A stretch of DNA of 64,000 nucleotides from Nepenthes gracilis (lineage: Eukaryota > Streptophyta > Magnoliopsida > Caryophyllales > Nepenthaceae). Under the pieces are notes generated by a model. It was not told the origin of the DNA, made no database searches, and saw only the letters and a program-made list of their open reading frames with translations. Below, piece after piece: positions 5,930 through 47,385 of this stretch. How positions within the stretch are numbered: the first letter of the stretch is position 1; the number at the start of each line of letters is the position of its first letter. The position numbers and the translations under genes were made by a program. The DNA lies in NCBI GenBank assembly GCA_033239525.1, contig BSYO01000008.1, positions 11,787,294 through 11,851,293 of the forward strand. Direction: 5' to 3'.

Positions 5930-6400
5930 AAGACTTCTAACTTTTGAAAAAAAAGCGCTCCGTCCTTTGAAAAAGAGCTCCGCCCTTTTGAGAAAAGTAC
6001 TCCATCCTTTTACAAAAAAGAGCTCCATTCTTTTGAAGAAAAAGCACTTCGTCCTTTTTACAAAAAAGAGCTCCATTTTTTTATGAAAAAGCACTCCGGA
6101 TTTTGAAGAAAAATCACTCCGGTTTTTGAACTCCAGATTTAAAGGAACTCCGGCTTTTAAGAACTTCGACTTCAAAAAAAACGCTGCCTTTTTTAAAAGA
6201 ACTCCGGCTTTTAGAACTCCGACTTTTTATGTAAAAGAATTCCGGCTTTGAAAAGAACTCCGCCTTTATGAATAATAAACTCCGGTTTTTAAGAACTTTG
6301 AATTTTAGAAAAGAACTCCGGCCTTTGAAAAGAACTTCGGATTTTGAACTCCGCCTTTTTAAGAAATGAACTCCGGCTTTGAAAAGAACTTCGGATTTAA
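5930..6400 (+). repeat. Minisatellite of GAACTCCGGCTTTT-type units
   Basis: More than twenty degenerate copies of an 18-30 bp unit made of an A-run, GA[AG]CTCCG[CG] and a T-run (for example aaagaactccggctttt). Unit length drifts from about 28 bp at the left to about 18 bp at the right. It lies in the downstream half of the solo LTR. A smaller array of aagaagtccggat-type units is at about 4960-5055. Confidence 0.8.
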
Positions 6401-7792
6401 GATTATACGGACTTCAACTGAGGAAGTAAAGAACAAGGCTACATAAAAAATGCATGTAATACGGATAGCAAGTAGAACTCTATGACTTTCGACTTTCGAT
6501 CTATGATGTATGGCCATTAAAGGACAAGAACTATGAACCGAGTCTCCATTAAACTTGCTGTTAAAGATAGATGAAGGGTATTGGAGTGACACTTGAGAAT
6601 TGCCTCCTAGGCCACGGGAGGGGATTTTCTGGTGGCATAAGAACTATGGGTTACGGCCCCGTATGTTGGGTTAAAGGTATTACCTCCTGCCCCGGGGAGC
6701 ATAATGAGGGGATACGGCTTTAGGTTGTGGGGTTACACACAACCCGTCCTCGATGTTGTCCGCTACCGTCCGGTCCCTAAAGATGATAAGAATTCTCAAT
6801 GGTTTTTATGAGTTTTCAGCAGACAAGACAAGAAGAAAAAGACTAAGAAAATTTTGAACTAAAAGACATGATGATTTTCGTATGCTAAATTATATTCGCT
6901 TATATATATATGTTTATCTTCTCTGTTTTCTGCATGTGAGTATTTTGCTGGGCTTTGTAGCTCACTCTTGTTATTTTCAGATGACGAAAGGCTCATGGAG
7001 GACGAAGTCGAGTAGAACATTATGGTGTAGCCAAATAGTTCGGTTGGCCGGAGCTGATTAAATGGAGAGCTTAATTTTATTTCCTTTTGATGTTTTGAGA
7101 AAATTGTAAAATGATTTGCTGTTTATAACTTTATGGATGTTATTAGAATGTTTCGTGATTTCTTTATTGTTAATGTTATTGAAAGGTTTAGTAAGCATCT
7201 CAGACTTTCAAATCCGGCTAAAAGTTGGCTGGCCTAGTGTGGAAATTATCGGAAGGCCAACTCATGCAGTCCGGCCTTATCAATCCTGTGAAAAGAAAGG
7301 AAACATTTTTATGTCCATAATTGTCTTTTAAGACCTGACGGCGACTTTATGTGGGAATTAAGTCCGGGACGTCACAATTAACCATACGGGCAAGTAAGAA
7401 TTCGGTCAATAGAAATGTTGACCAACTAAAAATGAATCTGGTCAATAGAATGTTGACTGGCTTAGAGGAGAATCTGGTCAACAAAATGTTGACTAGCTGA
7501 GATAAGAAACTGCTCAACGGGATATTGACCGACTGTGAAGAGAAGTCGGTCAATGGATAATTGACCATCCACAAGAGAAAGTAGTATGGTCCATGGGTGC
7601 CAACTCAAAAGATTAACTGTGTATGCGTGATCTCTAGAGGATATGCACAATATCTGCAGAATGGGCATTGTCTCTACAAAGCACGATAATTTGAAGAGTA
7701 GTTTTAAATTATTGATGGTGACAGGTTTTGTCGTATATACAATACCGTGATTGCAAAACAATATATATGTATACTGTATTGCTTGTTAATGG

Positions 7793-8694
7793 AGCTCTGA
7801 GACAGTTGCCCTGTTTTTTTTTTAGCTGAGATTAGTTTTGTAATGCTAGGCTGGGATGTCTACAAAGAGGCAAGGTATTGGGGCGATGATCCAACCCATG
7901 CCAGAAAATTCAGAGCTGCAATCTGAGCATTGGGCGTGGATCAAAAATCTGCATAGATGCTGTGGTGTTTGCTGAAGCATTCTGTTGTTGGCAGAAAGAA
8001 AGCTCTCTACTCATGCTGTAATTTGATGTAGCCATGTATCAGCATGATGTAGTTGCTAAAGCTGAATTCATTTGCTACGGTTTACTGCTTGGATTTTCGC
8101 CATTGACTGATGATGCCAACAGTCTGCGGAGTGCTCTTGCCATGTCCGGGGTGCTCTGTTCGCTGTATGAGAGGAAATGGAACGAATCCATGGTCCTTTA
8201 TGGCCGAGATGGCCTTTTTATCCGAGATGAGTCCTATAGCGATGCATATGGCCGAGGTGGTGCCAAATGTTCGAGGTGCCTTTGGTGGATGTTGCACGTG
8301 TCTTGAAGCTTTTGTGGTCTGCTGATTGCAGTGTGTGGTTGCTCAATATGAAGAGATGATGCTGTGCGTGTTAGCCTGCTGCTAGGCTAAGGGAATTAAT
8401 GACATGCTGGTGGCTGGTGATGCTGATCCTGCTGGTACATGCGGCATACTCATGCTGAAGCAAATCGGGGTGAATGTTTGTTTTTGAAGACACAACCGAG
8501 CCTAAGTTTACTGATAACCATGATGAATATTTAGTTTGTGCTGTTTTTTCGTTTGAAGACACAAGACTTGTTTTTTATTTTTAATTTGGTGTTCGAGGTT
8601 TATGACTTTATTCCAAGTCGGAAAAACACTTGGAGTTTAATCATAGATTGTATAAATTTTTTTTAATACAATTTAATTACTTACAAAAAAAAAA
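7793..8694 (+). mobile_element. Truncated LINE 3' end inserted in the copia 5' LTR
   Basis: This 0.9-kb segment is absent from the 3' LTR and ends in a pure A tail (8685-8694) preceded by ttaattactta, the same ending as the LINE at 56548. About 70 bp before the tail is a small hairpin, CCAAGT (8613-8618) / ACTTGG (8628-8633), also present near the tail of the LINE at 56776-60594. No RT motif is present, so it is a 5'-truncated copy of a LINE 3' region. A target duplication was not found. Confidence 0.65.
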
Positions 8695-12977: not shown

Positions 12978-13697
12978 TATTGGAGTTACTTCCATATAGA
13001 AAAAGTCGGAGTGAAAATCAACTAGCCAGGCAAGTAAGAATTCGGTCAATAGGGATGTTGACCAGTTAAAGCATGAATTCGGTCAACGGAATGTTAACCG
13101 GCTGAGATAAAAAATCGGTCAATGGGATGTTGACCGGCTGTGTGGAGAAATCGGTCAATACATGATTGACCATCCACAAGAGAAAGTAGTATGGCCCATG
13201 GGTTTCAACTTAGAAGAGTGACTGAGTATGCATGATTTCTGGAGGATATGCGCAATCTTTGTAGAATGAATGCCGTCTCTGTAGAGCACGATGATTTACA
13301 GAACAGTTTTATATTGTTGATGGTGACATGTTTTATCATGTATGCAATACCATTAAAGGTGATTATAAAATAATATAGATATAAGTGTTGCATTGAAACG
13401 GTGTGTAAGTTTCTAAGTGTGTGAGAGTGTGAAGAGAGAAAACTATCAGTGAATTGTGCTCTTACTCTCTATTCTCTTCCCCTGGGGTTTGTGTAACCAA
13501 GGGTTTTTGTAACCGCAAAATTTACATAGTGAAATTTTTTTGTAGTCTAAGTATCCAGTGACTTTTCCTTATTTGAAAAGGTTTTTCACGTAAAATCTCG
13601 ATGTACTCTTCTTCCTTATTCATCTTTTCTTATTGTGTGTGATTGTAAGATTGTCATCACTACCATTATTATTGTGCTGATGTCATTTTTTCTAACA
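12978..13697 (+). repeat. 3' LTR of the copia element
   Basis: 720 bp, TATTGGAG...TTTTTCTAACA, uninterrupted homologue of the split 5' LTR. A purine-rich tract (gaggaaaag, about 12967-12975) just upstream is the likely polypurine tract. Four GGTCAA/TTGACC inverted pairs at 13044-13175 match those of the 5' LTR. It is followed by the AAAAA target duplication. Confidence 0.88.
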
Positions 13698-18102: not shown

Positions 18103-18107
18103 ACTAG

Positions 18108-18289
18108 TGTAATATTTCGGATCCCGATTAGATTATTTTAATATTAACTGTGATTTTGGGTATTTCGGACGTGGTGAAAGTAAATTAAAATATTCTAAAA
18201 TTTTGAGGAGTGATCGGGATTTTGGGGCGGCACCCAAGGAGCGCCTGTGCTGTTGTTCGGAATGCGATTTCGAATTTGAAATAAAAGAA

Positions 18290-18347
<58 letters not shown>

Positions 18348-20617
18348 GTAAGTAAAAGAATAAAGAAAAAAAAAGAAAAAGGAGAATGGGAAATCAGAAG
18401 GGAGAAAGGAATCGGGCAGAGAGAGGGGCTAGGGATTGTGGCGCGAAGAAGGAGGAGAAAGGAGGAAGCGGCGGCGGCGACGCGGGAGATCTGTGGAGAA
18501 TCGGCGGCGTGTGGTGGTTGTGGGGAGGTTGCGATTGTCGTGGGTGAGGCCTCGGCGGTTGTGGATTGAGGCGGCGGCGTTGTGTGAGGAAATTGGTGTC
18601 GGAAGAGACGATGGCGGCCATTTGAGGTGGTAGCGGCGACATCGGTGGTCGCAGTGGTGAGCGGTGGTGAGCGGAGGCTGCGGCGTGCAGTGGCAGTGCG
18701 AGCGGTGCGAGGGGAGTGAGAGGACGGCGAAGTTGTTCGATGGGAGAGAGGAGGCGATAGCGCAACGGTTTAAGCGTCGGTGCAGGCTGGGTGAGGCGGA
18801 GGAGGCCGACGACGGCCACGTGAGGCTGTGCGGTCGTCGAGCGGCGGCAGAGGACCGGCGGCAGCCGCGGCTGGCAGAGGCGCTGTGCGCAGAGAGGAGA
18901 AAGAGGAGGCCGTGCGCGCGGGGTGCGTGGGTAGGAGAGAGAAAGGCTCAATTGGAGTGCTTCGAGACATCCTTTCTTCAGATCTGCAGAGTATAATATT
19001 AAGGCAAGTATCATTTAACCCTATTCTTGGTCTGATTTAATTTATGATGCATTTTGACTACTGTGGGAGATTTTACTAACATGCATGTATTTTTATATAC
19101 CCCTAATTTATCAATTGTGTACATGCATGTATATTTTATCGGTTGTGCGGTGGTTTTATACTGGTATTTATGTTTTGGAGGGATTTTGGACACCGAGACG
19201 ATATAAATGTATGTTTGTGTATCCGTATATTGTGGAACCATGAACCAGGCCTTGCACTAACCATGCATGCTGCCGGGGGTGGGATCACTACGGGACCATG
19301 ACGGTTTGAGACCAGAGGGATCGTTTATGTGATCCGAGGCATGAGACATTTGGTACCGCTCCCGACGGGGACATATATGATAGGCTACTTCCGCCGGAAG
19401 AAAGGTTGAGGCTACTTTCGTCGGAAGGAAGGTTGAGATATTTGTAGCTGACCTACCCCACTGTGTATTTAATTGAGAACCATCGTAAGGAATTGACGGA
19501 AAACTAATATATTCGGACGTCCTAATATATAACTAAAATTTAATGTTGTACCCAAAGCTGCGGGTGGTAAAACATAGTGAGTGATTTCCTAATCTATGGG
19601 AGATAGAGTACATGGATGGCCTTGAGCTACTGGCCTAATTCGTAGCCGATATAGCCGTGGTTACCGGACGAGGGTAACCCTTCCTCAAGTTGGTATCATT
19701 GATCTTTGGTTCTCCGATTTCGTACATGCTTTGTATTTCTGCACGTATTTGGGTATACTGTGATTTGAGATACATGGTTTGGCCCATGGATGGATGATAG
19801 GAATGTCTCGTACGTGCTTATGTGATAAACCCAGCACGTGTTTTGATTTATGTTTTAGTTCCGGCGGTTTTTTCTTAATTTCTGCATTATGAGTTTTAGA
19901 TCCGGATGACGGTATGTGTCCCACGTGGATGTGGTGACGGTTGCGACATATGTGACCTCGGATTATATGATATGATATCATTTACGAGATTTTACCGGAT
20001 CATGATTTATATGATTTTGTCCCGGATGGACGAGTTATTACGGACGACGATTTAGTACAAGACATCTCCTCGATTTTTAGGATTTCACGGACATGGTGTT
20101 TTGTTTTACGTAATTGCTATGCGATATCCTTGTTCTGATTTATAAGTACTGTTTTTATACAATGATGCTTGCTGAGCTCTAGGCTCATGTTTTCATATTT
20201 TATCCCTTCAGACTAGTGGCATGGATACGCTTGCAAGAGCTCGGACGTGATCGGGCTCGGATATTCCTCTTGGCAAGTGGAGATGTTATATTTGGTATAT
20301 TTCTGGTCTCGAGGATATGTTATGATTATTATTTATGGCCGAATGATGGCCTTGATCATTGTATGTAAAATATTGAAGTTATAGTATTATGTGGATGAGT
20401 TGTTACAAATTTGGATACCTCCCTTGCGATAATGGTTAGCATGTCGTGTATTATGTTTGTCCGAATTCTTATCTGATGAGATCTTGTGCGGGTTTTATTT
20501 ATATTGGGTCCTACATGTGTATGATTGTCACACCCAGGTTGGGTTCTTATGGTTGATGGAAATATTATTATTGATTTTATTTTTGACCTGCGAATATTGT
20601 GTTCCCGGGTCTTGACA
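18108..20617 (+). repeat. 5' LTR of gypsy element A
   Basis: 2,510 bp. It holds a TAA microsatellite (18292-18346), a GC-rich purine-biased block (18430-18990), the AGGCAAGT motif (19002-19009) and the ATGCATGT-rich segment at 19080-19135. Long open frames in the GC-rich block on both strands are compositional and have no homologue I recognise. It is largely collinear with the 3' LTR, which lacks many short GC-rich pieces. Confidence 0.88.
18292..18346 (+). repeat. (TAA)n microsatellite in the A LTR
   Basis: About 18 uninterrupted trinucleotide units. The equivalent tract in the 3' LTR is the insertion site of element D (units on both sides, 24362-24367 and 34552-34588). Confidence 0.95.
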
Positions 20618-20621
20618 GTGG

Positions 20622-20632
20622 TGGTATTAGAG
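20622..20632 (+). other. Primer binding site of gypsy element A
   Basis: TGGTATTAGAG, four bases after the 5' LTR end, is the initiator tRNA-Met site with one C-to-T change (family form TGGTATCAGAG). Confidence 0.75.
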
Positions 20633-20639
20633 AAAAGGT

Positions 20640-23600
20640 CATAAGGAGAGGTGATTTCGGGTCATCTTGGGTAAGAAATTGATTGAATATCTGGCGTGAT
20701 ATGTGTAGCCTTTGGTAAAGAATGAAAGTTTGGGTCGTAAATATTTGAATTCGACTCGAAAAGTTGATTAATTGGCTGTGTTGAGTCGTACGAGCGACGT
20801 AATTGGTAATTCGATTTAGCAGCCAGATGAGGGTTTGGTTGCTTTGTGAAGGATGGTTTGTTGTAGTCAAGATGGAGAGTCCTTCGAATGATTAAATGTG
20901 AGTCGATTTGAAAAATTTTGGGATGTTTAATCTCAATTAATGCTTAAATTGAACTTCAGAAAGTGGATGAGGTGTTCGAGGTTTCTGACAGTCCAAATGA
21001 AGTTTTGTCTATTGCCCATAAGTTGGAGAGTGAGGCAAACCAGTAGTAGGCTTCTCAGTGCCATATTTCACTTCTTGAGATGTTTTTGTGGAGGCAATTT
21101 TAAGAGTTATTCTCTGTTTGGCATTCGGGATAATAAGGAAGGTGAATTTAGTTGGTGAAAGCACGGAATTAAGTCTGTAGCCTTTAAGATTGTACGTAAA
21201 TATTGTATGTTTTTTCAATTTTTAGAGCGAGCTTTGATAAAGTTTACTCGTGATGGGTAAACCTTTGACTGTTAAGTTGTAGACTCTGATGTCCGGTCTG
21301 GGTTTGTAGATATCAATGATTGGTTAATCTAATTTTATTTGATGAACCGAACTTTAATGTGATATTGTGGGTGATTTGGTTGGGAAGTCACCACATTAGT
21401 GTAAACGATTTTAGTAAGAATATTCTAATTTACAATTTGGGCTGTAAATTTTAAATATGAGGAACAGCTGATCAAGAGGTGATGAAATTGGTATTATTGT
21501 GCCTGCAAGTGAATTGATGAAAATATGTGTCGAGTTTATCTGGCATATGTGGCGACTTCTGGGAGTCGTTATGTGATCATAAAAGGGTTTTCTGGTTGTA
21601 TGATAATTCAAGGCTGTTTCTTAGATGAGAAGATTAGCCTAAATTGTCTTTTAGTCGGTAGTTGAGGTTGTTGCTGAGGTTGTGTCCGGAGTGACATCGA
21701 TTTCGAGGACCTTGTATAGAGTTAATGAGGCATTGGTCGAGTGCCTTGCCGCGGGGTGTTAAATGCTTTTGGGATAAGCGTGATGAATCTATGAGGTTAT
21801 CTATGAATTATTAAAATTTAATTCGTTTGGGAAATGAATTATTTGATAAGCGAATGTTAGGAAATGGTAGGTGATTTGTTTGATCAATGGTTGGTACTCG
21901 ATGTTTTCTAAATCGATCTGTACTTGGAGTATTGTCAATTAAGGCTATCAGGAGAATATACCTGAGGTTGCCTTCAAGATAAAGGTGCGGCCGTTGTGAG
22001 CTTCAGTGATGTTTTTGGGTTAGTGATTTTGTTGGCATCTTTTGTAGGTCTTATGAATCTTATAATCTTTTGGCCGTATTTTTGGTCTATTTATGATGGC
22101 TTCATTAATGATGTTTTGATTTGTTCGATGAATTTATGTGGGGCATGAGTTTCGTCTGAGGAGCGTGTCATAGCTGCGAAGGGTTGTTTGTGGTTTGCCC
22201 AATTGAGGAGATGTGAGTTTGGTTGGAAGTAGTGTTATTTGGGCATGTTGTTTCTTCGATGGCATGCTTGTATATTTGCAGAAGATTAAAGCGATGGCCA
22301 GTTGGGGAAGGACCATCGTTTGTTGTGAAGATGTGCAATTTCTTAGGTTTAGTTAAATTTATTAAGCGATTTGATGATGATTCTTTGAGAATTGTTGCGT
22401 CCGTGGGACGTTTGGCTTTGAAACGATCGATGTTTATTGTATAGTAATTGTAATGAGAGCTTTCCAGAAATGAAGGGCAGATTGCCGATAATGTCAATTT
22501 GGTCAATCCCGGATGGATCAAGTTAATCTGTGGTAGGTTGTGATGCTCTCGAGGAAGATTTGAGGTTGTGTTTTGATGCAGCGTTTTCAGGTGATTGCCT
22601 ATGGGTTTTAGCGGTTGAATGTTTTTGATCAGAATTACTCCACTTATGGCTTGGAGTTAGCAGTTGAGGTATTTGCTCTGAGGATTTAGAAATGTTATTT
22701 GTATGAAGATAATTGTTGTTTAATTTGATTATAAAGGCTTGAGAAATCATTTCAGAAAAGGAGAATATTATTGACAATGTTTTGGGTTGAAAGTCTTCGG
22801 ATTTGTTATGTATATTTTCATAAGAAAAAGCAGAAGCATGTAGGCTCGTAACCCTCAGTGGTAAGATTCGATTTGGATTCTTAGGTAGAGAATTTGATTT
22901 GAAATTCAGTTCGAGGACGTTGATTATGTGGAGGTTTTGTTGAGTCCTGTAATTTTGGAAAAGTGGCAGCTTCGATTTGGATCGGTTTGAAATCTCACGG
23001 AGTAGAAGGAGATTTTTATCGACGAAGGAGTAGGTAGGTGGATCCATTCTCAGCCTATGCGTATGCTGTTCAGGATCAGAGTTGCATTAAGAGCTTGTGC
23101 TGTAATGTCTTCTGTTTTTGTTTTGAGCAGAGAAGTTGTAAAGTTATCGGTGAATAATTTCCTGCTAAGATTGGGCTCCAAAGCAAGCTCCTATCTGCGG
23201 AAGATGCTTTTGTGAAGATCAGAAGTGAAGATCTTTTTGTTAGCGGTCATGAAGCCGACGCAATCAAGCGAGCCTCGATTGTCGGATGGAAGCTCGGGAG
23301 CTTGATTGAGGTTGTCAAAGAACTATTATGGAGTCAAGTGATCTAAGTTTGTTAAGAACGTTGAAGACTCTTCACTGGCGGAGTGGCGAGTTGAACATAC
23401 GTCTCGCGCTTAAAGGTAGAAGCCAAGAGGAAGAAGCCTTCGAGATTTTGTTTTGGTTTGCGTTGGATAGCGAGGAATTTAGTGGCATCTTGGATGATGA
23501 TGGATAAGCTGGTGAAGTCGGTTCTTTGCTTGCTGATCAGAAAGTCATTCTTGAGTTTGGTCATCGACATATTATCGAGATGAGAAAATTGCACAGTATT

Positions 23601-24160
23601 CTAATTCTGAAGCCCTTGATTGCGATTGGAAGTAGATGGTTGATCAGAGTTGCACAGTGGAAGCGTGTGGATTCATAGCTATCGGTTACAAGAATTGATT
23701 CGAGAATTCAAGTATGGGATCAGATTTGTAGCTTGAGTGGATGATGGAGAAGAGTGGTCAGATATTTCTGAAAGCATCATGAAGAGAAGAGCTTCAAGTT
23801 TCGATGGCAAATGATGGATTGAGGTTGAGGTTCGATAGGACTTTTGAGATTTTGCGATGGACTGGAAAGGTGGCCAAGAGATTGGCATTGTCCCTAGTTT
23901 GGCAAATTGTGATGATGTGTTTTGTATATGTATGTTGAGAGAAATATGAATTGAGTATTGGCATGTGATCGAATTTGAATTGTTGCTGATTTTGAGAAGC
24001 TATTTTATGTTGAGATTTTGATTCCGATATTGGGATAGAAAGATCAGGTGTTGATGATCAGATTTTTGGAAGAATCTTTTGATCAATGTTAAGCTCGGAA
24101 GAATTGTTCTTATTTATTCAAGGATTGATATGCGTAAATTTCGAGGACGAAATTTTTATA
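20640..24160 (+). pseudogene. Gypsy A pol (protease, RT, RNase H, integrase), degenerate
   Basis: The 3.5-kb interior aligns with a gypsy pol but has no usable frame. Landmarks on the plus strand: FNVILWVIWLGSHH at about 21352-21395 (protease/RT linker FDVILGMDWL), CRVYLAYV at about 21530, the RT end VVLFGHVVSS...CNFLGLVKFIKRF at about 22230-22375, RNase H block GLELAVEVFAL at about 22650-22685, and the last residues KFRGRNF before the polypurine tract at about 24136. No gag finger or RT YxDD box is recognisable, and stops are very common. Element B's interior is collinear with it, so A and B belong to related families with different LTRs. Confidence 0.75.
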
Positions 24161-24367
24161 ATGAGGGGAGAGTGTAATATTTCGGATCCCGATTAGATTA
24201 TTTTAATATTAACTGTGATTTTGGGTATTTCGGACGTGGTGAAAGTAAATTAAAATATTCTAAAATTTTGAGGAGTGACCGGGAGTTTGGAGCACCGGAG
24301 GAGCGCCTGTGCTGTTGTTCGGAATGTGATTTGGAATTTGAAATAAAAGAAATATATATAACAATAA

Positions 24368-25548
24368 TGATGGGTACACCCAAAATTGGCCCAAAGAGAG
24401 GTCAGAAAGCCGGAAGGCCAAGGGTCAACGTTCTTTGACGGCCCACTAAGGAGATAGGCCGAGGCCCAGAAAGGCCCAAGGGCATTCCCGGCCAATCAGC
24501 TCAAAAACAGTCAACTTCGGCGTTGACCGACTTGATTGGGCCTTCGATTGATGGGCTGTTCCATTATGGCCACGGCCCATATTGGTCGCCGCCGCTCCAC
24601 GAGGGCGGCGACACTCGAGGCGTTGGCCGTCCCGCCTCTTACGTGACGGGCCCTAAAATAGGCCCTTTTGAAATGGGCAGCTTCAGGCCCATAATCCAAA
24701 TGAAGGCCACCAACGGACGCCTTTCGTGATTATGTGGCCCAAGAGTTCTAGGGCATAGACCCACGATGGAGGAGGGCGGCGAAAACCGCAACGCATTTAA
24801 TTCGGGAGACACGCAAAAGAGGCGGAAAGGCTAGCCACCGTGGGCAATTTGTACAACACCAACGCCACTGCCTGTCTGCGGTGGCCAACCACTCCCGCGA
24901 AGGAGGAGTCGGGCTAAACGACACCAAAGAACGCGTGCCGATCACGACAAGGCAGCCGCGTGACCAACGGTCCACGGCGACTGACCCGGCGATTGGCAAC
25001 GACCACCTTGGTGCCCAAGAATCCAGCATGGTGAGGCGTATAAGAACCCTCACACCCCACTGAGAAGGGAGAGTTTTTCTGAGATCTTTCCAAGCATCTT
25101 AGACTCTTCACTTCTCTTTGAATCAAGAACTAAAAAGACAAGTCGCATTGATCTGCTTCCCTTTGAGTGAACTCCCAGAACTGCACAAGCTCTGATCCCC
25201 AGCAGCCGAGTTCTCAAGCACGATCGAACTTCAAGGCAACGAACGGGTCGCTACACACGTTCTCTGCCTTCCCACCATCCAGATACGAGGAAGGACCTGC
25301 CCCTTACTAACATCTGGAACTAAACACTCTTCTCTCTTCTCTCATTGCTCTTTCTATCTTTCAGTTCCTTCCATTGAAGGCTGTTTATTGACTTGAGCGT
25401 CGGAGAGTTTTCGGTGGGATTAACTCCCGCCGTGAACGCCGACTTCTTGTTTGCTTTAGTGGTGTGCGGGGTTCGCACTCGGTGAAGCGAATAAGGATCA
25501 GCTCATCCAAGAATCCGAATTCGTTCAAGTCGGATCCAGCACGCATCA
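24368..25548 (+). repeat. 5' LTR of element D
   Basis: 1,181 bp, TGATGGG...GCATCA. A probable TATA box, GTATAAG at 25038-25044, lies 3' of a GC-rich U3. The 3' LTR is about 145 bp shorter and has lost the 40 bp that include this TATA box. Confidence 0.88.
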
Positions 25549-25549
25549 T

Positions 25550-25560
25550 TGGCGCCAGGA
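25550..25560 (+). other. Primer binding site of element D
   Basis: TGGCGCCAGGA follows the LTR after one T. The TTGGCGCC start is the usual primer site of Tat-lineage elements; the following bases differ from the common form. Confidence 0.7.
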
Positions 25561-25599
25561 AGCGCTTACAAAAAAGCCTACCACAAAAACCCGCTCTAA

Positions 25600-27235
25600 C
25601 TCTCTGTCACCTTCGCTTCTCAATGGTGAACACGAAAAGGCTAGTGATCCGGCTAGAGAGATTAACCCGAGGACCATGCGCTAATGTCCTGGTGAAGGTG
25701 GGAGTCTACCACGTTATTTTCGTATTGGTGGTGGAGCAGATGCAAGCTAACAATCCTCTGCTCCAAGCGCTCTGTGTACACGTATGAGCAACAACTGCCG
25801 GTGGCTCCACCAGCCGTCATCCCCGCTCCCGCCACCAAAAAAGGTGGCCAGAGGAAGAAGAAGCCGGCCAAAAGGCCTGCGAAAGCCGGGGACGATCCGG
25901 CTCCAGCGTCCTCCCGCGCTCCTGGCCAGAACAGGCCAACGGAACGCTCCGGGAGTACGTCTCCTACAGAGAGCCCAGAAAGGAGAAATCCTCGATATTC
26001 TCGGGCAAAGGACCGTCACGCGGTCCAGGAGCGAGCCCTCGGGATCGCCGAGATCCAAGTGGCGGCGATCGACCGATTCTGAACCCAGCGGGACAAGGCG
26101 GAGTTGAGGAATTTCGCCGGCTCCAAGAGATCGACCAACGCCACTCGTGACCCACGAGTGGATCAAATCTGGAACCGCGTGTTCCCGAACGACAAGGGCA
26201 CCATCGACTTGGACAAAGTCGCCTTTCACCGTAGAAATCCTAAGCCGTCCTCTACCGTCCAAGTTCAAAATGCCGTCCCTTGACTTATACGATGGGGGCG
26301 GTGAGGTTGACCACCCGATCACTTCCGCACCCATCTAAGTCTACAAGGGCTAGAGGACTCGGCAATGTTGCTTTCCACTCGAAAGGAGATGCGAGAATCT
26401 GGTTTCACCATCTCCCTTCGGGCACGATCGTAGTGAACTCACGGACCTCTTCCCCGCCCCAAGTATGCATCAAGCCGGCGGGAAGAGAAGCAGCCGTGGC
26501 ACCTCTCCCACATAAAACGAAACCGGAGAGAACCCACGCGCTTCTGGATCGCTTCGTGAAGCCGGGAGGATTTCGAGATCACCGAGGAGATGAAGTTGGG
26601 CGCCTTCATCTCGCCGACTTACGGCGACTTTTTCAAGCACCTTGCCCACAAAAATTCTCGAGACTTTTCGCGAGGCGGAATCCATCACTGCAGCCTACGC
26701 AGCGGGGGAGGAGGCCAATGAGGCAAAACATCCCGAGAGAGGCGGACCGGCCTCTACTGTTCCTCAGTGATGGGAAAAGAAAATACAAGCGAGAGACTAC
26801 GGGCCCACCACCTTCACGCCCGATGAGACACACGCTCCAATGTTCTAATGCAGATCCGCGGAGAAAAATTTTTGAAGTGGCCAAAGACGCGAAGAAGGAC
26901 TCGGAAATCAGTCATTGGATTTCCACCGCTCTGCGGCCATTCAATCAAGATCAGAAACGCTGCGAAGGAAATGAGGACTTGATCCACAGAGGTCACCACA
27001 CCCGGTTTGTCAAGGGGCGGGGACGGAACTCGGGGCGGCCAACGAAGAAGGGCGAGAGCGAACACCTCCCAAACAGATTGCGGCGGGGTGGTCAACATGA
27101 TCAACAAGCACTGCTAGGAGCCCAGATGACAACAAGGGGCAGCAGATCGGGAGGAAGAAGCAACGCACGGAAGACAACATCATTAGCTTTAGTGATTGTG
27201 ACTCGAACCATGTAATCTCCCCCATGTGACCCCCT
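25600..27235 (+). pseudogene. Element D gag, degenerate
   Basis: The N-terminal part is Lys/Pro/Arg-rich (25770-26080). At about 26218-26300 the reading PFTVEILSRPLPSKFKMPSLDLYDG is the conserved opening of the Tat Gag core. Later blocks occur in shifted frames: HLAHKNSRDF at about 26640, and EDLIHRGHHTRFVKGRG at about 26965-27020, which is the segment after the Gag finger (family: EIE.LIRRGHL..FV). The finger itself is lost. Short deletions and stops break the frame throughout. In a working element this protein forms the particle. Confidence 0.72.
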
Positions 27236-27249
27236 TGTAATCTCGGACT

Positions 27250-30200
27250 TTCGTTTGAGCACGGGTGCACGTCGGACTACCAGTGGGAAGCGAGTCTTTG
27301 TCGATAATGGAAGCTCTAAAGATTTGCTTTACTTGGACGCGTTCTTTAGACAAAGCCTAAGAAAAAAATCAACTAAAACTCTTGGTCAAGGACCTTTATA
27401 CGGCCTTGACAATGAACCAAAGTGCCCGTTCGAGGACAATCAGCTGGAGGTCACCACAGGCACTTACCCAAAACAGCAAGTCGCATGCTAACCTTCCTAG
27501 TGGTTGATCGCCTCTGTTTACAACGCCATACTAGGCGGCCGTGCCTAACAGCGTTTGGGGCAATCACGTCAATTCCACATCTTAAAATGAAATTCCCAAC
27601 GCCCTACGGCGTCGGAGGTTCTCGGGGAGATCGAGTCGTTGGGCGGACTGCTACATGGAGTTGCCTGGCGGCGTAGCCCGACATGGCGGGAGAACTCGAT
27701 CACCGAGCGAGACCACCTTGCAACAAGCGTAGCAGGGTGAAGCCACGAATTGGTCCCACTGGACCCCGGGGGAGCCGAGACAAGTGCGTCGGTTGGCGGC
27801 TCACTCACAGGGCCTTACGCGATGAACCGATCACGTCTTTACTCGGGTCTCCATGGACATGCTCGGATTTCAGTGAAGTGATGGTCAAACCGGCCTTGAT
27901 CTAGCAAGAAGCCGATCGTAGAAACGGAGGAACCACTTCGTCGAAAAACTAATCGCCATCCGAGAGGAGGTGAAGAAGTTCTTTGGACACAGAGCTTCAT
28001 TAGGGACGCCGATCAGTGATCGCTCTCAAACGTCGTCCTGGTTAAAAAAGTAACGGAAAATGGCGAATGTGCGTCGATTTTACCGAGCGTCAACAAGGCT
28101 TGTCCAAAATGAGCTTTTCCTATGGATTGACTTTGTTGGTTGACTCATTTTAAGCTTCATTTGATCGAGAATGAGTCCAGAAGACGAGGGCATACCTCGT
28201 TCATGACAGACCATGGCACCTATTGCTATAGGGTCATGCCCCCGGGTATGGAGCCACTTATCGAGTGAACAAGATGTTCGAAAAAGCAAAATCGCAACAT
28301 GGAGGTCTCTACGTCGACGACATGCTCGTCAAGAGAGTCACGGGCGACCACACGTGACTGGAGGAGTCATTTGGGGTGCTCCGCCGGCACCAAATGAAGT
28401 TAAAGCCAAGTGTGTCTTCGGGATAACCTCGGGGAAGTTCTTGGGTTTCATCGTCTCTCGAGGGATCAAGGCAAACCGAGGAAAAGATTAAGGCCCCAGG
28501 CCGACATGGCTCCCGAAAACGTAAAAGACGTCCGGCGATTGTAGGCGTTTGGCGGCTTTGTCCGCTTTCGAAGGAGACAAATACCAGCCCTTCTTTAAAG
28601 CCTTGAGAGGAACAAAGTCTAACGGATTCCAATGGACGGTTGTTGCCAAATCGCCGATGAGTTGAAGCGGTATCGGCCAGCCCCAGTTGTTGGCGTCACC
28701 CAAAGACGGAGAGGAGCATACCTTTTGGGCGAGACGGAGGCATCCTCGGCTCCGTCCTCGTGCGCCAGAGTCCGATATCCAACAACCGGTCTACTACGTA
28801 TGACCGGCCCGAAACTCGCTACCGCGCGTTGAAAAAATGGCGTGCCCTTATCTTTTTGAGGCCATACTTTCAGTGCATCGCATAGTGGTCACTTCTTGAC
28901 CCGCCATAAAGGCATACTCCAAAGCCCGACGTTTCGGGCGATTGGTAAAAATGAATTGGGTGAGTTCGACATCGAGTTTTGAGACCCGCCATAAAGGCAT
29001 GAGCTCGGGCCGACTTCATCGTCGAGACCACGACCCCAATCCGAGAAGAAAAACCAACGAAAAGCGAAGAACAGCCGGTGGGGCCCAGAATCGGGGAGCT
29101 CCACGTGGAGATCGTCCAATTGGCGATGGGGCGGGGGGTGATCCCGGCGACCCACGATGGATACGAGATTAAGTACTTCCTAAAACTTGATTTGGACCAA
29201 CAACGTTTGAAGCCCTACTAGGCGGCTTGCGATTAAAGGAGTGCTCACCAAGAGGTTGGCGATCCACAATAGCGATTAATCGTCAAATCAATGGGGGCTT
29301 CGAGGCAAACAACCCTTCCTTGGCGGTGCACTGCAAAGGCAAAGGAGGCTATCCGGGCTTGATAAGCTAACCCTCGGTTCACGTTCTCGAATGTAAAATT
29401 GGAAAGTAAAGAGTAATTAATTCGAGGACATGCGGGAAACACTCCTAGCATAGAGAAAAGGAGGCCATGGATTTCGGAGACGGGCTGGATGACTCCTTAC
29501 CTTAGATACGCCGACGGATCACTCCTGAGGAGGAGAAAAGGCCAAGCGGATTAAAAAAGGCAAGAGGCTGGTACACGGTAGTTGATGGACGGCTATATCG
29601 CCGCGGATACTCAACTCCGTATCTCATTTGCCTATCCCCGAGGAGGCGGAGACTAATTTGGGCGAAGTTCACCTTGGGATCTCGTGGATCGCACGTAGGC
29701 GGGAAGAACCTCGGCCTCAAAGTCATGCGGCGGGGCTACTACGGGCCCAATGAAAAAGGACGTGCTTGAGTTTGTAAAGAAATGTTGGCCTTCATGGCAA
29801 CCTCCACCACCGGCCGCCCGCGGACTGAAGTCCCTTCAGCCCCCGTGTAGCCCCTTGGTGGATGGGGGCTTGACAGGCCCATTTTCCCTTGCCACGGACA
29901 AAGGAAATTCATCATAGCGGGCATCGACTACTTCACTAAATGGGTCGAGGCGCAAAAATCACGTTGGAATTCCTTCGCGGGGCATTGTGCATAGATCTGG
30001 CGTCCCCGAGGTCGTGGTGACCGAGGACCCGGGGGAAACGCTTCACCAAGTATTGTACCGGCCTTGGAATCAAGCTGGTCCACAAGCCAACGGGCAGGTG
30101 GAGGTCACAAACCGTACGCTGCTCACGGGTTAAAAACTAGATTGGAGGACGGCGGGGCTCTGGGGTAGTAGCGGTCTTATCGCACAACCCCGAAAGAATA

Positions 30201-30560
30201 AACACGCGAGACACCCTTCAGCCTCATTACGGGATCAAGCGGTAATCCCGGCCGAAATCGGGCTTCCAAGTCTCGGGGTGGAAAAGACCAAGAAAATCGG
30301 GGAGCACTTGGACTTGTTGGAGGAAGCCCGTGTGGCGGCTAGAGTACAGGATAAAGAAGATACCAACACCGTACTACAATAAAAGTTCAACGTTGGGGAG
30401 CATCGAGGGGACGGCTCTCCCAACGGGAGGGACCTTTTCTTGTCTCCGCTGTCCCGCGCAATGGGGAGTACAGGCTCGGAACCGGGACGGGAAGTTGGTC
30501 CCACGAACGTGGAACGCAACCCAGAAGCGCTACTTCAATAGGGAACCCAGTGCGCCCTAA
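27250..30560 (+). pseudogene. Element D pol (protease, RT, RNase H, integrase), degenerate
   Basis: Protease: VFVDNGSSKDLL at 27295-27330 (family IDNGSSADIL). RT: FIRDADQ and NVVLVKK at about 27995-28050, LYVDDMLVK at about 28302-28330 with both catalytic Asp present, SGKFLGFIVSRGIKAN at about 28427-28475. RNase H: a stretch ending AIKAxARADFIVE at about 28990-29025. Integrase: GWMTPYLRYADG at about 29482, VVTEDPGE at about 30014, ANGQVEVTNRTLL at about 30085-30122. Comparison with the usual spacing shows many blocks of 6-60 nt missing, plus frameshifts and stops. The integrase lacks the TDNG box in intact form. It cannot encode an active polyprotein. Confidence 0.8.
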
Positions 30561-30717
30561 CTCGATCCCTGTGCATTCATTCGTGTGCTTGTTTTTACTT
30601 CGGAAAATGAGAGTTTACTTAGCATGTAGAATTTTAGGGCCTATGAATTGTGTTTGCCTTGCGGTATCCATCCGACCTAGATCTGCCCCTAAGTCGGGAG
30701 GTCTTCACCTCTCGTTA

Positions 30718-30972
30718 AACCCTAGTCATCTAGGTGGCCCAAAAAGTGGTCGAAAACCTGGTCATCGGGTAGCCCATAGCGGTCTTAAACCCTAGTCATC
30801 TAGGTGGCCCATGAGCGGTCCAAAACCCCGGTCATCCGGGTGGCCCATGAGCGGTCTTAAACCTTGGTCATCCAAGTGGCCCATGATGAGCGGGAAACCT
30901 CGGTCATCCGAGCGGCCCAATAGCGGTCGGACTAAACCTTGGTCATCCAAGTGACCCATGGCGGTCTAAAAA
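30718..30972 (+). repeat. 36-bp tandem array with covarying hairpins
   Basis: Seven units follow pol. Each contains a 5-bp stem, a TCAT loop and its complement, then GGCCCAT..GCGGTC. Stems are CCTAG/CTAGG (30721-30734 and 30791-30804), CCCGG/CCGGG (30827-30840), CTTGG/CCAAG (30863-30876 and 30938-30951) and CTCGG/CCGAG (30899-30912). One unit (30756-30770) has a weaker ACCTG/CGGGT pairing. Stem sequence changes on both sides together while loop and spacer stay constant. Confidence 0.92.
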
Positions 30973-31504
30973 CCTTAGGGGGCAAGAATGGCACACGCGA
31001 CGACCTCTTTTTGAGGAGAACGGCGTCAACGGCGGTCGAAAGGAGAAGCATTTCTTCTCCAACATTGCAGCCCAAATCTTCACTTGAACAGGCGCCACCA
31101 GGTGGTTCTTCCGACCGCTGGTGGCACCAACTTTCTCTATAAAGGGATGGCGTAATCAAACAATAACGGAAGTGCTCCTTCTCTAACACTAACCGCCCAA
31201 GTTCCCGCCACAAAGATCGCGAGGATGGTTGATGTTCGGGGCTAAGCTCCTCGAGCAACCAAGCAACGATTCTTTTTGGCGCCCAAAACAAAGAACTCAC
31301 GCAAGCAATGAACACAAAGCGGTAAAAGGCAATGGACATGAACTAAAAGATCATCCATTTTATTGCTGTAAGTATGGGCAATCTACATACGGGAAAGGAA
31401 ACAAAAGAGAATACAAAGGCCATTGGCGGACCACCCGGCTATCTCGGGGCTCTCCCCGCAAGTCTTCTTCTTGCGCGCCGCGCGGTTCCTTTGATTTATA
31501 AGCT

Positions 31505-32981
31505 CTACAGGAAGTCGGGAACAACCAACCGCGCGACGCGATGTCCAATATTGAGCCCCTCCAACAGCCGGGCATGCAGTGCGCCCGACCTCGTGGGAGG
31601 CTCATCCAGTATCCAACTCGCTCTCACGACGGCGACTCTATCCGAAAGGCGTTTGTTGTCTGCCTTAAGCCGATCTTCCTCTTCCTTTGATCGGGCGACC
31701 TCCGCCTTGATGCAGCGATCTTCCTCTAAGTCCGCCACGATTGACCTCAAGAGCGGCGATGCTCGCGTAGCTCTCCCCCGAGGCGGCCATCCCGGCGTCT
31801 ATGCTATCTCGACCTCCCGCTCCATGATAATGCATCGCGTTGTTCTATTTCCCGGGAGACAAGCGAGGCCACTCTTCTCAGACAGACTGAGCAGCGTGAG
31901 CTTATAAACATAAGAAAAAAAAAAGAATGTTAAGGTTATACCTCGTAGGTATTCCAATAGGACCTCAAGGACTCCCCTATTCGGAGGTGTGGAACATCCT
32001 CGAACACAATTTGCCCTCATCCAAATATGATCCAAAGACTCATCATCCTCAACCGGCACAAGGCTCCTCCACTGCAGCCATGGAGTACTCGCGGCGGGTG
32101 TCTTTTTACGCCTCGGGGCTGGGCCGGAGGAGCCCCGTCGCGGCTCCACAATATGCCGCGAGCCGGCTCCTCCATCGATCCCATATATGAACCACCTTAA
32201 GTTGGGCCAAGATAACTCCTCCAAAGATCCGCCGCCTCGTCCTCACCCGGTACATTGCTGGGCGAATGAGCCACAAGGTCAATCGAGAGGAGGAAGATGA
32301 GGGCGTTTGGCGCAGCTTCCTCCGAGACATTGGGCGGATGAGCAACTTCTCGAGTCGTGGCTTTTGAATAGTGGCCAGTGGGACCCATTCAACCTTCTTG
32401 GTCTCCTGAAACCAAGAAGTCCCTTCTAAATTCATCGGGATTCTTCGTATGGCCGTGGTCGCCATGCACCAATCTCCGCCGCAGTCGACACGCCAAGGTG
32501 CACCTCGGGGACCTCGCCCGGTCTTCGCGATGGGGCATTCCTCTCCCACCTTCACGAAGAAGAACCGGTCCTTTGTTCTTGAGGAGTCGTAAATAGCCTT
32601 GCTTATCTTGATCTCGCACGGGGCCGAGTGAGATCCACTCGCCCGGGTCACCTTAAATATACCTTAAGACCGACATCCTAAACCTCTGTTTGAGCTTAGG
32701 GCAAAAATGCATAAAGTACAAATATACCTCATGGCATGAAGCCGGGCGATGGGAACCCCTAGGGCCGCTACAATCGACTCCAGCTCCTCCGGAAGGGGCA
32801 GCCGGAGCCCGCTCCTCAGGTGAGCCTCGTAGACGGTGATGTGGCCTTCCGGTGGGTGAGAGGCTATTTCATCTGCTCCCGGAACCCTCCAGGCCATCTC
32901 CTTCGGAATGTTAAATTCGACGCACAATGCCTTAATATCACTCTCCCTTAAGACAGATGAGATTTCCGCGACGGAAGCCAT
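31505..32981 (-). pseudogene. Antisense gene of element D (gypsy-associated 'Transposase_28'-like protein), degenerate
   Basis: Read on the minus strand from ATG at 32981: MASVAEISSVL, then about 30 residues on WRVPGADEIASHPPEG followed by TVYEAHLRSGLRLPLPEEL. The RVPG..E..S.PPEG.ITVYE..L..GLR.PL series is the signature of the plant 'putative gypsy type transposon' family, encoded antisense in Tat-lineage retrotransposons. After LHAMR a GT donor (32727) opens what looks like a short AT-rich intron, and a basic region with KDRFFFVKVGEECP (about 32530-32575) follows. Further downstream (31505-31750) is a charged, coiled-coil-like stretch with ADLEEDR and EEEDRLKADNKRLSDR. Intermediate frames carry stops and shifts. 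The protein's biochemical role is unknown to me. Confidence 0.7.
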
Positions 32982-33503
32982 GATCGGAAAGGTTCTAGGG
33001 TTTTCCTCAGAGGTTTGTCTGCGAAACGAGAATGAGGAAGACGAAGGAGTTGTACCCGATTTCAAACAAAAAACGGAAGGAAAATTTAGGCGCCAAGCTT
33101 GAATTGCCACATGTCAACTCCTCATTCGATGGGACTCCCGAAACCCCTCATTAATGGTCTCATCACACGTGTCACACGCTTGCCAGAGGACGGATCTCCG
33201 CGTATTAATTACCCGGATCTCCTTCCAACCAAAAAGGGGACGTGCCACTTTGTGTATCAGAAATCATTCCCGCACTGACCCAGGACGGTCAACGGTGGAA
33301 CGATGGCAGGACGGGCCAATATGACCGACCAGACGGGGGCAGTGCGGAACTCGAAATGACCGGGGACGGCTAACAATTCTCGTACTCGGAATTGGCTAAA
33401 ACGGTCCAACAATTGAGCCAAGCATTCCTTCACGCTCTTGTGAGTTTCCACGGGATTCTCAAAGCAAGGAAGGCGTCCCATCATGAGGTCAAATCGACCA
33501 CCA

Positions 33504-33515
33504 GATGGGGGCTAG
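33504..33515 (+). other. Polypurine tract of element D
   Basis: GATGGGGGCTAG directly before the 3' LTR start, the expected primer for plus-strand synthesis. Confidence 0.7.
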
Positions 33516-34551
33516 TGATGGGTACACCAAAAATGGGCTGGCCCAAGGAGAGGTCAACGGGAAGCCCAAAGAAGGCTACCAACGTTCTTGACGGCCCACT
33601 AAGGAGATAGGCCCAGAACCGAAAGGCCCAAGGACGGATTGGCGGCGTTACTGCCAATCGTCAAAAACGGCCAACTGCGTTGACCAGCATTGTTGGGCTT
33701 TTAGACAGGCTTTGGCAGGCACATGATAACCATTATGGCCCAAAACTCCACGAGGGCGGCGGACACTCCCGACGGGGTCAACTCAAATTGACCGTCCGCC
33801 TCTACGATCGGGAGGCCCTTCTAAAATGGGCCTCGACTCGCCTGTGCCCATAATCCAAATGAAGGCCACCAACTGAGGACAACCAATTCACCAAGAGTTC
33901 TAGGCATAGACCACGATTGCATTTAATGCGGTCACGGAGACACGCAAAGAGGCGAAAAAGGCTAGGTGGTAACCAACATAGTGGCCAACCACTCCCCGCA
34001 GAGGGAGGAGACAAACGACAGTGCCGATCACACTAGGCAGCCGGGCGTGGGTCCACGACGATGGGCCAGCGGCGAATGCCCCAGCAAACCACCACCTTGG
34101 TGCCCAAGAATCCAGCATGGTGAGGCGTATCGAGATCTTTCCAAGCATCTTAGACTCTTCACTCTCTTGAATCAAGAACTAAAAAGACAAGTCGCATTGA
34201 TGCGCCTTTGAGTGAACTCCCGTAATCGCACAAGCTCGATCCACCCAAAGTTCTCAAGCACGATCCAACTTCAAGGCAACGAACGGGTCGCTACACACGC
34301 GTTCTCGCCTTCCCACCATCCGGATACGAGGAAACCTTACTAACATCTCGAACTAAACACTCTTTCTCTCTTCTCTCATTGCTCTTTCTATCTTTGGTTC
34401 CTTCCATTGAAGGTCATTTGACTTGAGCGCCGGAGAGTTTCGGTGGGATTAACTCGTGAACGCCGACCTCTTGTTTGCTTTTGGTGTGCAGATTCGCACT
34501 CGGTGAACGAAGTCGGATCAGCTCATCCAAGAATATTCGCTCAAGTCATCA
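33516..34551 (+). repeat. 3' LTR of element D
   Basis: 1,036 bp, TGATGGG...CATCA, collinear with the 5' LTR but missing many short segments, including the TATA-bearing stretch (the copy jumps from gaggcgtat to cgagatctttcc). Followed by AATAA and the remaining TAA repeats of element A. Confidence 0.88.
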
Positions 34552-34588
<37 letters not shown>

Positions 34589-36671
34589 TATAAAGTAAGT
34601 AAAAGAATAAAGAAAAAAAAAAGAAAAAGGAGAATGGGAAATAAGAAGGGAGAAAGGGTGGGAGAGAGAGGGGCTAGGGGAGAGAAGAAGGGGAGGAGGA
34701 GAAAGGCGAAGGAGGAGGAGAAAGGAGGAGCGGCGGCGCGACGCAGAGATTAGTGGAGAATCGCATTGTGGTGGTTGTCAGGGGGAGGTTGCGATTGTCG
34801 TGGGTGAGGCCTTGGCGGCCAGGGATTGAGGCGGCGGCGCTGGGTGAGGAAATCGGGTGTCGGAAGAGACGATGGCGGCCGTTCGGTGGTAGCGGCGACA
34901 TCGGTGGTGATTTACGTGGTGGTGCAAAGTTGTTCGATGGGAGAGAGGAGGCGATAGTGCAAGTTCCGGCGTCGGTGCCGGCTGGGTGAGGGCGGAGGAG
35001 GCTTGAGGCTATGGTGGTTTGTGCGCAGAGAGGAGAAAGGGGGAGTGCGCACGGGTGCGTGGCGGGAGAGAGAAAGGCTCGATTTCAGGACATCCTTTCT
35101 TCCAGAGTATAATATTAATGCAAGTATCATCTAGCCATATTGTTGGTCCGATTTAATTTATGATACATTTTGATGGGAGATTTTACTAACATGCATGTAT
35201 TTTTATATACCCCTAATTTATCAATTGTATACATGCATGTATATTTTATCGGCTGTGCGGTGGTTTTGTACTGGTATTTATGATTTGGAGGGATTTTGGA
35301 CACCCGGTCGATATATATGTATGTTTGTGTATCCGTATATTGTGGAACTATGAACCAGGCATTGCACTAACCATGCATGCTGCTGGAGGTGGGATCACTA
35401 CGGGACCATGACGGTCCGAGACCCGAGGGGTCATTTGTGTGATCCGAGGCACGAGACATTTGGTACCTCTCCCGACGGGGAGGCTTAGTCCCGACCGGGA
35501 GGCTTAGTTCGGACGGGGACGTATATGATAGGCTACTTCCGACGGAGGGAAAGTTGAGGTTACTTCCGCAAGAAGGAAGGTTGAGATATTTGTAGTTGAC
35601 TTACCCCACTGTGTATTTAATTGAGAACTATCGTAAGGAATTGACGGAAAACTAATATATTCGGACGTCCTAATATATAACTAAAATTTGAGGTTGCACC
35701 CAAAGTCGCGGGTGGTAAAACATAGTGAGCAAGTTCCTAATCTATGGGAGACAGAGTACATGGATGGCCTTGAGCCACATGGCCTATTTAGCCCCGATAT
35801 TTTACCGGACGAGGTAACCTTTCCTCAAGTTGGTATCATTGATATCATGCTTTGTATTTCCTTGTGATTTGAGATACGTGGTTTGGGCCCACGGATGGGC
35901 GATAGAATACGTCTTTGATTGATAAAACCCGAACGTGTTTTGATTTATGTTTTAAGGTGATTTTCTCTTGCATAATAAGTTTTAGAGGACGATGGTATGT
36001 GTCTGGTTGTAGCGTGTGTGACCTCGGATCATATGATATGATATCGTCTACGAGATTTTACCGGATCGTGATTTATATGATTTTGTCCCTTACAACGATT
36101 TAGTACGAGACATCTCCTCGATTTTGTGGATTTCACCCGGACATGGTATTTTATTTTACGTGATTGCTATACGATATCCTTGTTCCTAATTTATGAGTAC
36201 TGTTTTTATACGATAATGCTTGCTGAGCTCTAGGCTCACGTTTTCATGTTTTATCCCTTAGACTAGTGGCATGGATACGCTTGTAGGAGCTCGGACGTGA
36301 TCGGGCTCGGATATTCCTCTTGGCGAGTAGAGATGTTATATTTGGTATATTTCTAGTCTCGATGATATGTTATGATTATTATTTATGGCCGGATGATGGC
36401 CTTGATCATTGTATGTAAAATATTGAAGTTATAGTATTATGTGGAAGAGTTGTTGCAAATTTGGATACCTCCCTTACGATCATGGTTAGCAGGTCGTGTA
36501 TTATGTTTGTCCGGATTCTTATTCGATGAGATTTTGTACGGGTTTTATTTATATTGGGTCCTGCATGTGTATGATTGTCACACCCGGGTTGGGTTATTAT
36601 GGTTGATGGAAATATTATTATTGATTTTATTTTTGACCTGCGAATATTGTGTTCCGGGTCGTGACAATCAG

Positions 36672-46869: not shown

Positions 46870-47385
46870 GGAATTCATAATCGGTTGACTGGTCATTTTG
46901 ACTTCCTGCAAACATTCTCGGCCATTTTTCCTTCTCAGCCGGTCAATCCCATATTGGCAAAGTGTATTCCGTGCACCTTCAGGCGGTCAACTTGTTGACC
47001 GGCTATTTTGGCTTCTTGCAAACATTCTTAGCCATTTTGCCTCATCAGCCGGTCAACTTGTTGATCAGCCACTTTGCCCCATATTGGCAAAGTGTATTCC
47101 ACGCACCTTTATCCGGTTAACCTATTGACTTGCCATTTTGGCTTCCTGTAAATATTCTCGGCCATTTTACCTCCTCAGCCGGTCAACCCGTTGATCAGCC
47201 ACGTTGCCCCATATTGACAAAGTGCATTCCACACACCTTCAGCAGGTCAACCCGTTGACCGGCCATTTTAGCTTCCTGTAAATATTCTCGCCCATTTTGC
47301 CTCCTCAACCAGTCAACCTGTTGACCGGCCACTTTGCCACATTTTGGCAAAGTGCATTCCGCGCACCTTCAGCAGGTCATATAAT
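46870..47385 (+). repeat. Four-copy 130-bp tandem repeat with GGTCAAC/GTTGACC palindromes
   Basis: Markers such as gcttcctgta[a/c]a[t/c]attct recur near 46904, 47014, 47144 and 47274, giving periods of 110, 130 and 130 bp. Each unit contains ggtcaac..gttga[ct]c, ccatattggcaaagtg and cgcaccttcag-like blocks. The unit around 47245-47260 holds the perfect palindrome GGTCAACCCGTTGACC-type core. GC content is higher than its surroundings. Confidence 0.8.

Follow-up and report, generated by a model that had tools for sequence, protein, structure and literature searches.

Paired stem differences among tandem 36-bp hairpin units in a Retand/Tat-like retrotransposon of Nepenthes gracilis

When the unit of a tandem array contains a hairpin, the hairpin of the founder unit is passed on by duplication, and a row of hairpins is in itself unremarkable. 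The remarkable part of the array considered here is that its units differ from each other by paired changes in the two arms of the stem, which raises the question of what has kept the arms complementary while their letters changed. The array lies in a window (the whole stretch analysed) of 64,000 nucleotides from a genome of 752.5 Mb in 133 contigs. A first-pass annotation of this window alone had described seven 36-bp units with a TCAT loop and six perfect stems. This description is confirmed by TRF (36-bp unit, 7.1 copies, 30716-30971) and by the unit coordinates, with loops starting at 30726, 30762, 30796, 30832, 30868, 30904, and 30943; the stems are 5 bp long, and the broken one belongs to unit 2 (Table 1). 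Selection on a stem-loop is the single explanation that we favour, with a probability of roughly one half as judged from the sequences.

Host element and constant parts of the array

Table 1. Positions in the window of retrotransposon D, its parts, and the hairpin units of the array.
Feature	Position	Strand	Basis
LTR retrotransposon D, Retand/Tat-like, 10.2 kb, within older repeat	24368..34551	+	self-comparison
5' LTR of element D	24368..25548	+	end inferred from TGGCGCC primer-binding-like site at 25550
pol stop codon of element D	30539..30541	+	homology with copies whose pol ORF ends RYFQ; by eye
Hairpin array, seven 36-bp units	30715..30971	+	TRF and unit alignment
Unit 1 hairpin, CCTAG-TCAT-CTAGG	30721..30734	+	identical stem in 75/82 aligned copies
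Unit 2 hairpin, CCTGG-TCAT-CGGGT, broken in window	30757..30770	+	family's commonest stem is CCTGG/CCAGG
Unit 3 hairpin, CCTAG-TCAT-CTAGG	30791..30804	+	window and copy alignment
Unit 4 hairpin, CCCGG-TCAT-CCGGG, probably CWG lesion of CCTGG/CCAGG	30827..30840	+	copy alignment
Unit 5 hairpin, CTTGG-TCAT-CCAAG	30863..30876	+	window and copy alignment
Unit 6 hairpin, CTCGG-TCAT-CCGAG	30899..30912	+	window and copy alignment
Unit 7 hairpin, CTTGG-TCAT-CCAAG	30938..30951	+	window and copy alignment
Broken antisense ORFs of element D	31505..33113	-	ORF comparison with copy L087
3' LTR of element D	33516..34551	+	self-comparison

The stretch 18106-36666 of the window holds two copies of an older repeat, one at 18106-20617 and the other split at 24368/34552 by element D. 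The element is flanked on both sides by AATAA, which lies within an AAT-rich tract and is weak as a target-site duplication. No Pfam matches were obtained for ten ORFs of the window, where the copy is too broken. In the genomic copy L087, three overlapping or adjoining ORFs carry RVT_1, RT_RNaseH, RVT_3/RNase_H, Integrase_H2C2, and rve in this order, so two RNase H domains accompany the reverse transcriptase and the integrase, as is characteristic of the Tat group. The same copy has two antisense ORFs (6145-6678 and 6949-7992, minus strand), and antisense ORFs also occur in the region between pol and the 3' LTR in copies L088 and L092.

This region, 30542-33515 of the window, is approximately 2.97 kb long, against approximately 3.6 kb in L088 (ORF end 5122, LTR start 8712); the accessible text of PMC11963269 gives 2,933-6,566 bp for Retand elements and describes them as having a long region of this kind, antisense ORFs within it, and tandem arrays in about half of the elements. 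All three features are found here. According to the same part of that source, the Retand antisense ORF contains the TRP28 domain (PF04195), for which we found no match with E up to 10 in two copies and the window fragment, using a Pfam copy in which the presence of this model is unconfirmed. Judged by domain order, element D is Tat-like, and the layout of the region is that reported for Retand. The array begins 174 bp past the homology-placed pol stop, ahead of the antisense ORFs converging on it, and its assignment by the first-pass annotation to a place between pol and an antisense gene of a Tat-like element is thus borne out by the ORF layout and the L087 domains.

Across copies, the unit columns show a constant core, AAACC-stem-TCAT-stem-(T)GGCCCA, and variable spacers. 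Both the loop and the downstream sequence had been taken as fixed; this holds for the core, and the GCGGTC tail proved less constant. It should be noted that the unit parser demanded TCAT, which makes its 100% conservation true by construction. A coding constraint on the array was considered and rejected, as none of the six frames of the type-a unit is free of a stop codon (read by eye).

Other tandem repeats occur nearby. Two related 36-bp arrays with GGTCAA/TTGACC inverted arms lie at 7396-7557 and 13036-13160 of the window, and a 130-bp array with inverted repeats resembling CCGGTCAAC/GTTGACCGG at 46948-47379. A third repeat of the element with a 36-bp period is located at L089:2906-3069, where the antisense ORFs lie.

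Scrambled CWG sites in the window copy

Covariation seen in one assembled copy can partly arise from damage at CWG sites, and the window copy is heavily affected. Units 2 and 4 are highly variable in many copies, with single-base indels, and the variation centres on CTG and CAG sites, outside the array and in pol as well. In the window copy of pol, only 19 of 113 majority CWG sites are intact (read CTG); the T is substituted at 31% of CTG sites and lost at 14%, compared with 4% and 2% for other TG. CpG decay was rejected as the source of the variation in units 2 and 4, since the T of CTG is far more variable than that of other TG and deletions concentrate at it. The observed/expected ratio of CWG is 0.55 in element D and 1.07, 1.06, 1.04, 0.70, 0.88, and 0.99 in L087-L092, respectively. 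Scrambling of CTG/CAG, in the form of T-to-C changes and deletions, is seen in some copies of the family, the window copy, L091, and L090 among them, and not in others.

Neither T-to-C changes nor deletions are products of deamination. Base-calling errors can arise where methylation alters the nanopore signal, and base-calling or assembly error at methylated CHG sites is probably the source. The response of the nanopore signal to CCWGG methylation is described in the accessible part of PMC8495745. If real, the scrambling would represent a CWG-directed mutation process.

Because the window copy is scrambled at these sites, its CCCGG/CCGGG stem and its broken unit 2 probably derive from CCTGG/CCAGG through lesions or sequencing errors, to judge from the aligned copies. 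In the alignment of 82 copies, the commonest stems are CCTAG/CTAGG in units 1 and 3, CCTGG/CCAGG in units 2 and 4 (35 of 56 gap-free cells and 42 of 69 cells, respectively), CTTGG/CCAAG in units 5 and 7, and CTCGG/CCGAG in unit 6. CCCGG/CCGGG was also found at three loci of a less noisy set of copies and, on this basis, may be a true further stem type.

Assembly error or CWG-site damage thus accounts for these two units. As an explanation of the covariation as a whole, it is very improbable: units 1, 3, 5, 6, and 7 show paired differences in most of the 82 aligned copies and also in the 77 less noisy ones, and the stems CCTAG and CTTGG are free of CWG sites. Of the four covarying stem types named in the first-pass annotation, CCCGG/CCGGG is accordingly the doubtful one; when other copies are collected and aligned, as the annotation had proposed, covariation holds at the family level.

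Stem types across genomic copies

Depending on the query, a DNA search of the genome gave between 1,566 and 2,906 first-look candidates, of which 40 were scored. We parsed 121 distinct copies, comprising 77 less noisy copies, 42 flank-chosen copies, the window copy, and L083. The main covariation set consists of the 77 less noisy copies (596 units), 38 from the initial search and 39 from a query with the array of an 11-unit copy, which yielded the useful subfamilies. Flank queries from diverged copies, intended to reach older families, returned the same family (88-94% identity besides the query), with many CWG-noisy members. The main count leaves out the window copy (6/7 paired), L083 (four units), duplicate loci, the 42 copies chosen by their flanks, which are CWG-noisy (of their 262 units, 191 are paired and 55 broken), and units with a non-TCAT loop or a flank score below 7/12. 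The term "less noisy" is relative: the 38 copies retain a CWG excess, the 39 are so called on their few broken units (16/333), and the pooled CWG counts on short loci (0.92, 0.79, and 0.71 vs 0.45 in the window) are dominated by the array and are no proof of low noise. The copies share ancestry, and the counts are not independent.

Stem types were grouped by the number of loci carrying them. All four types present at at least 10 loci are fully paired, as are two of the nine types at 3-9 loci (CCTGA/TCAGG at six loci and CCCGG/CCGGG at three), none of the 12 types at two loci, and none of the 39 private types. Private types show mutation in resident copies, in which pairs are broken and no paired double change was seen among the 39; common types represent what active lineages have transmitted. 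Ordinary divergence therefore breaks pairing, as the first-pass annotation had expected. Its alternative of a mutation process acting on hairpins finds no support in resident copies; one acting during reverse transcription, or methylation hotspots common to the two arms, may be at work. Loss of pairing, which it had named as an outcome unfavourable to selection, is found in single copies and not in the types at at least 10 loci. The other such outcome, an origin of the variants in few events, is partly realised: the five core types require four paired changes (A-T/G-C at pair 4, C-G/T-A at pair 2, T-A/C-G at pair 3, and G-C/A-T at pair 5), yet the pair 5 change, CCTGA/TCAGG, is an addition, present at six of the 77 loci. 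This type adjoins CCTGG/CCAGG units with identical spacers in L108 and L116.

Where each arm of a unit is that of a core type, the two arms match in 492 of 527 cases. Only 1 of the 120 whole-arm arrangements of the five core types is fully paired, and permutation by column gives p = 0.0008. A first unit alignment of 16 rows, biased in that the broken unit 2 had been left out, had 100% of its cells paired and a covariation score above 500 of 500 shuffles; the number of pairs changed on both sides in it, three, was reached by 180 of 500 shuffles and is not unusual.

The predicted folding energies of the paired types are −5.5 to −7.9 kcal/mol, and three one-step mispaired types drop to −1.3 to −1.8 kcal/mol on one strand. 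Folded whole as RNA, the array is only slightly more stable than shuffled sequences, with z = −1.69 for the sense strand (10 of 200 shuffles as good) and z = −0.84 for the antisense strand (41 of 200); as DNA, z = −2.41 (2 of 200). The wobble-pair test showed no strand preference (24 sense vs 41 antisense units, 12 vs 15 types). Diversity in the array was not lower than in the flanks among 38 mostly noisy copies (2146 of 10000 permutations).

Several observations count against selection. Some mispaired types are shared between loci, at 8, 6, 4, and 4 of them, and in L105 one such type has multiplied to five units. The four paired changes are without exception C-G/T-A transitions, and their contexts are mirrored on the two arms. 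This pattern could also come from chance and shared mutation hotspots: an inverted repeat has the same methylation sites in both arms, on opposite strands, so deamination of methylcytosine changes C to T on one arm and G to A on the other, and doubles arising at these mirrored sites could be amplified by unequal crossing over. Pairs 2 and 4 lie in a CHG context, pair 3 in CG, and pair 5 in CHH; G>A and C>T are the most frequent of the 37 single steps away from core types, accounting for 16, and intermediates of every step occur. Genome searches for double transversions with one exact flank gave four matches for pair 2, none of them fully paired, and no matches for pairs 3 and 4. The pair 5 count can be set on either side of the question: with one exact flank, the genome contains 34 doubles, 51 units with only the 5' change, and 37 with only the 3' change (split by eye).

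Separately, expanded arrays of 8-12 units in L071, L104, L105, L108, and L121 contain chimeric mispaired hairpins resembling the products of unequal exchange within the hairpin.

Hotspots would, however, make single-sided types at least as frequent as doubles among those that have spread, and none of the four types at at least 10 loci is single-sided. A crude neutral simulation of 60 units, in which all mutations were transitions, C and G mutated at three times the rate of the other letters, and exchange at the loop was either allowed or excluded, left 4-9% of common types paired; in none of the 1390 runs with at least three common types was every common type paired. The pair 5 change, moreover, lies in a CHH context, which as a rule is the least methylated. 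We consider an origin by hotspots and chance unlikely, though it is the strongest of the alternatives to selection.

Pairing could also be restored without selection during reverse transcription, when a strand switch causes one arm to be copied from the other; quasipalindrome correction is a known kind of such hairpin-templated correction. This mechanism requires no function; it would yield paired types in lineages that leave progeny, with private changes that arise after insertion remaining unpaired, which agrees with the observed distribution. A second hairpin array bears on it. This array, AATTGACCAGGACGGTCAACAATTCTGGAACTCCGG, lies at L088:8259-8565, past the antisense ORF and immediately ahead of the 3' LTR, and is also present in L087, L089, L091, and L092, with a decayed counterpart at about 33280-33420 of the window. 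It is like the first in its 36-bp unit, in having a hairpin per unit, and in its location in the same region of the same element, but variation in its hairpins is often confined to one arm. In counts shaped by a regular expression fixing three letters per arm (TTG, GGT), full pairing is seen in 9 of the 27 matched units, and five of the seven copies examined contain the one-sided TTGGCC/GGTCAA. The same reverse transcriptase thus leaves some hairpins imperfect, which makes templated correction a weaker explanation, and the mispaired types common to up to eight loci also argue against it; we regard it as rather improbable. Since the second array has not been kept paired, pairing is no general by-product of such arrays, and since hairpins in them need not covary, the first array is the special one.

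Candidate role and relation to known systems

Under the favoured reading, selection on a stem-loop, the array would be a row of such structures in the non-coding stretch between the pol and antisense ORFs. In copies that left progeny, selection would have kept the pairing of the arms, the TCAT loop, and the AAACC and GGCCCA flanks, with the paired letters of the stem free to change together. The constancy of AAACC, TCAT, and GGCCCA around a variable stem suggests that loop and flanks are recognised, presumably by a protein, and the seven to twelve units could then form a multivalent binding platform on the RNA of the element, sense or antisense; single-stranded DNA is a less likely alternative molecule. 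That selection is the cause, that the molecule is RNA, and that the array serves protein binding are inferences from the pattern. The full proposal, a selected multivalent RNA stem-loop platform with recognised loop and flanks between converging pol and antisense transcripts, is tentative, and we hold it possible with the odds against it. If it is true, the array is a working part of the element, beyond raw material for satellites.

Our literature search by title and start of abstract found no match for covarying hairpins in such arrays, and their novelty is provisional; the paper cited for arrays of this kind is Macas et al. 2009. PMC7004042 contains no mention of hairpin, palindrom or inverted repeat, and the accessible text of PMC11963269 none of hairpin, secondary structure, stem or inverted. 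As far as that text describes them, Retand/Tat arrays resemble the present one in lying between pol and the 3' LTR beside antisense ORFs and in having short family-specific units in variable copy number, and they differ in that each unit here holds a hairpin with paired differences between units; their origin and function are reported there as unknown.

The covarying hairpin belongs to a family in which each query met 1,566 to 2,906 first-look candidates, and it provides a direct test of selection against hotspots. In further species, paired changes should accumulate if the structure is selected and fail to accumulate if hotspots are responsible.

RNA hairpins that bind proteins include the operators of phage coat proteins and the transport elements of retroviruses. 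The array, known from its sequence, resembles these systems in combining a constant loop and flanks with a variable paired stem, present in several copies.
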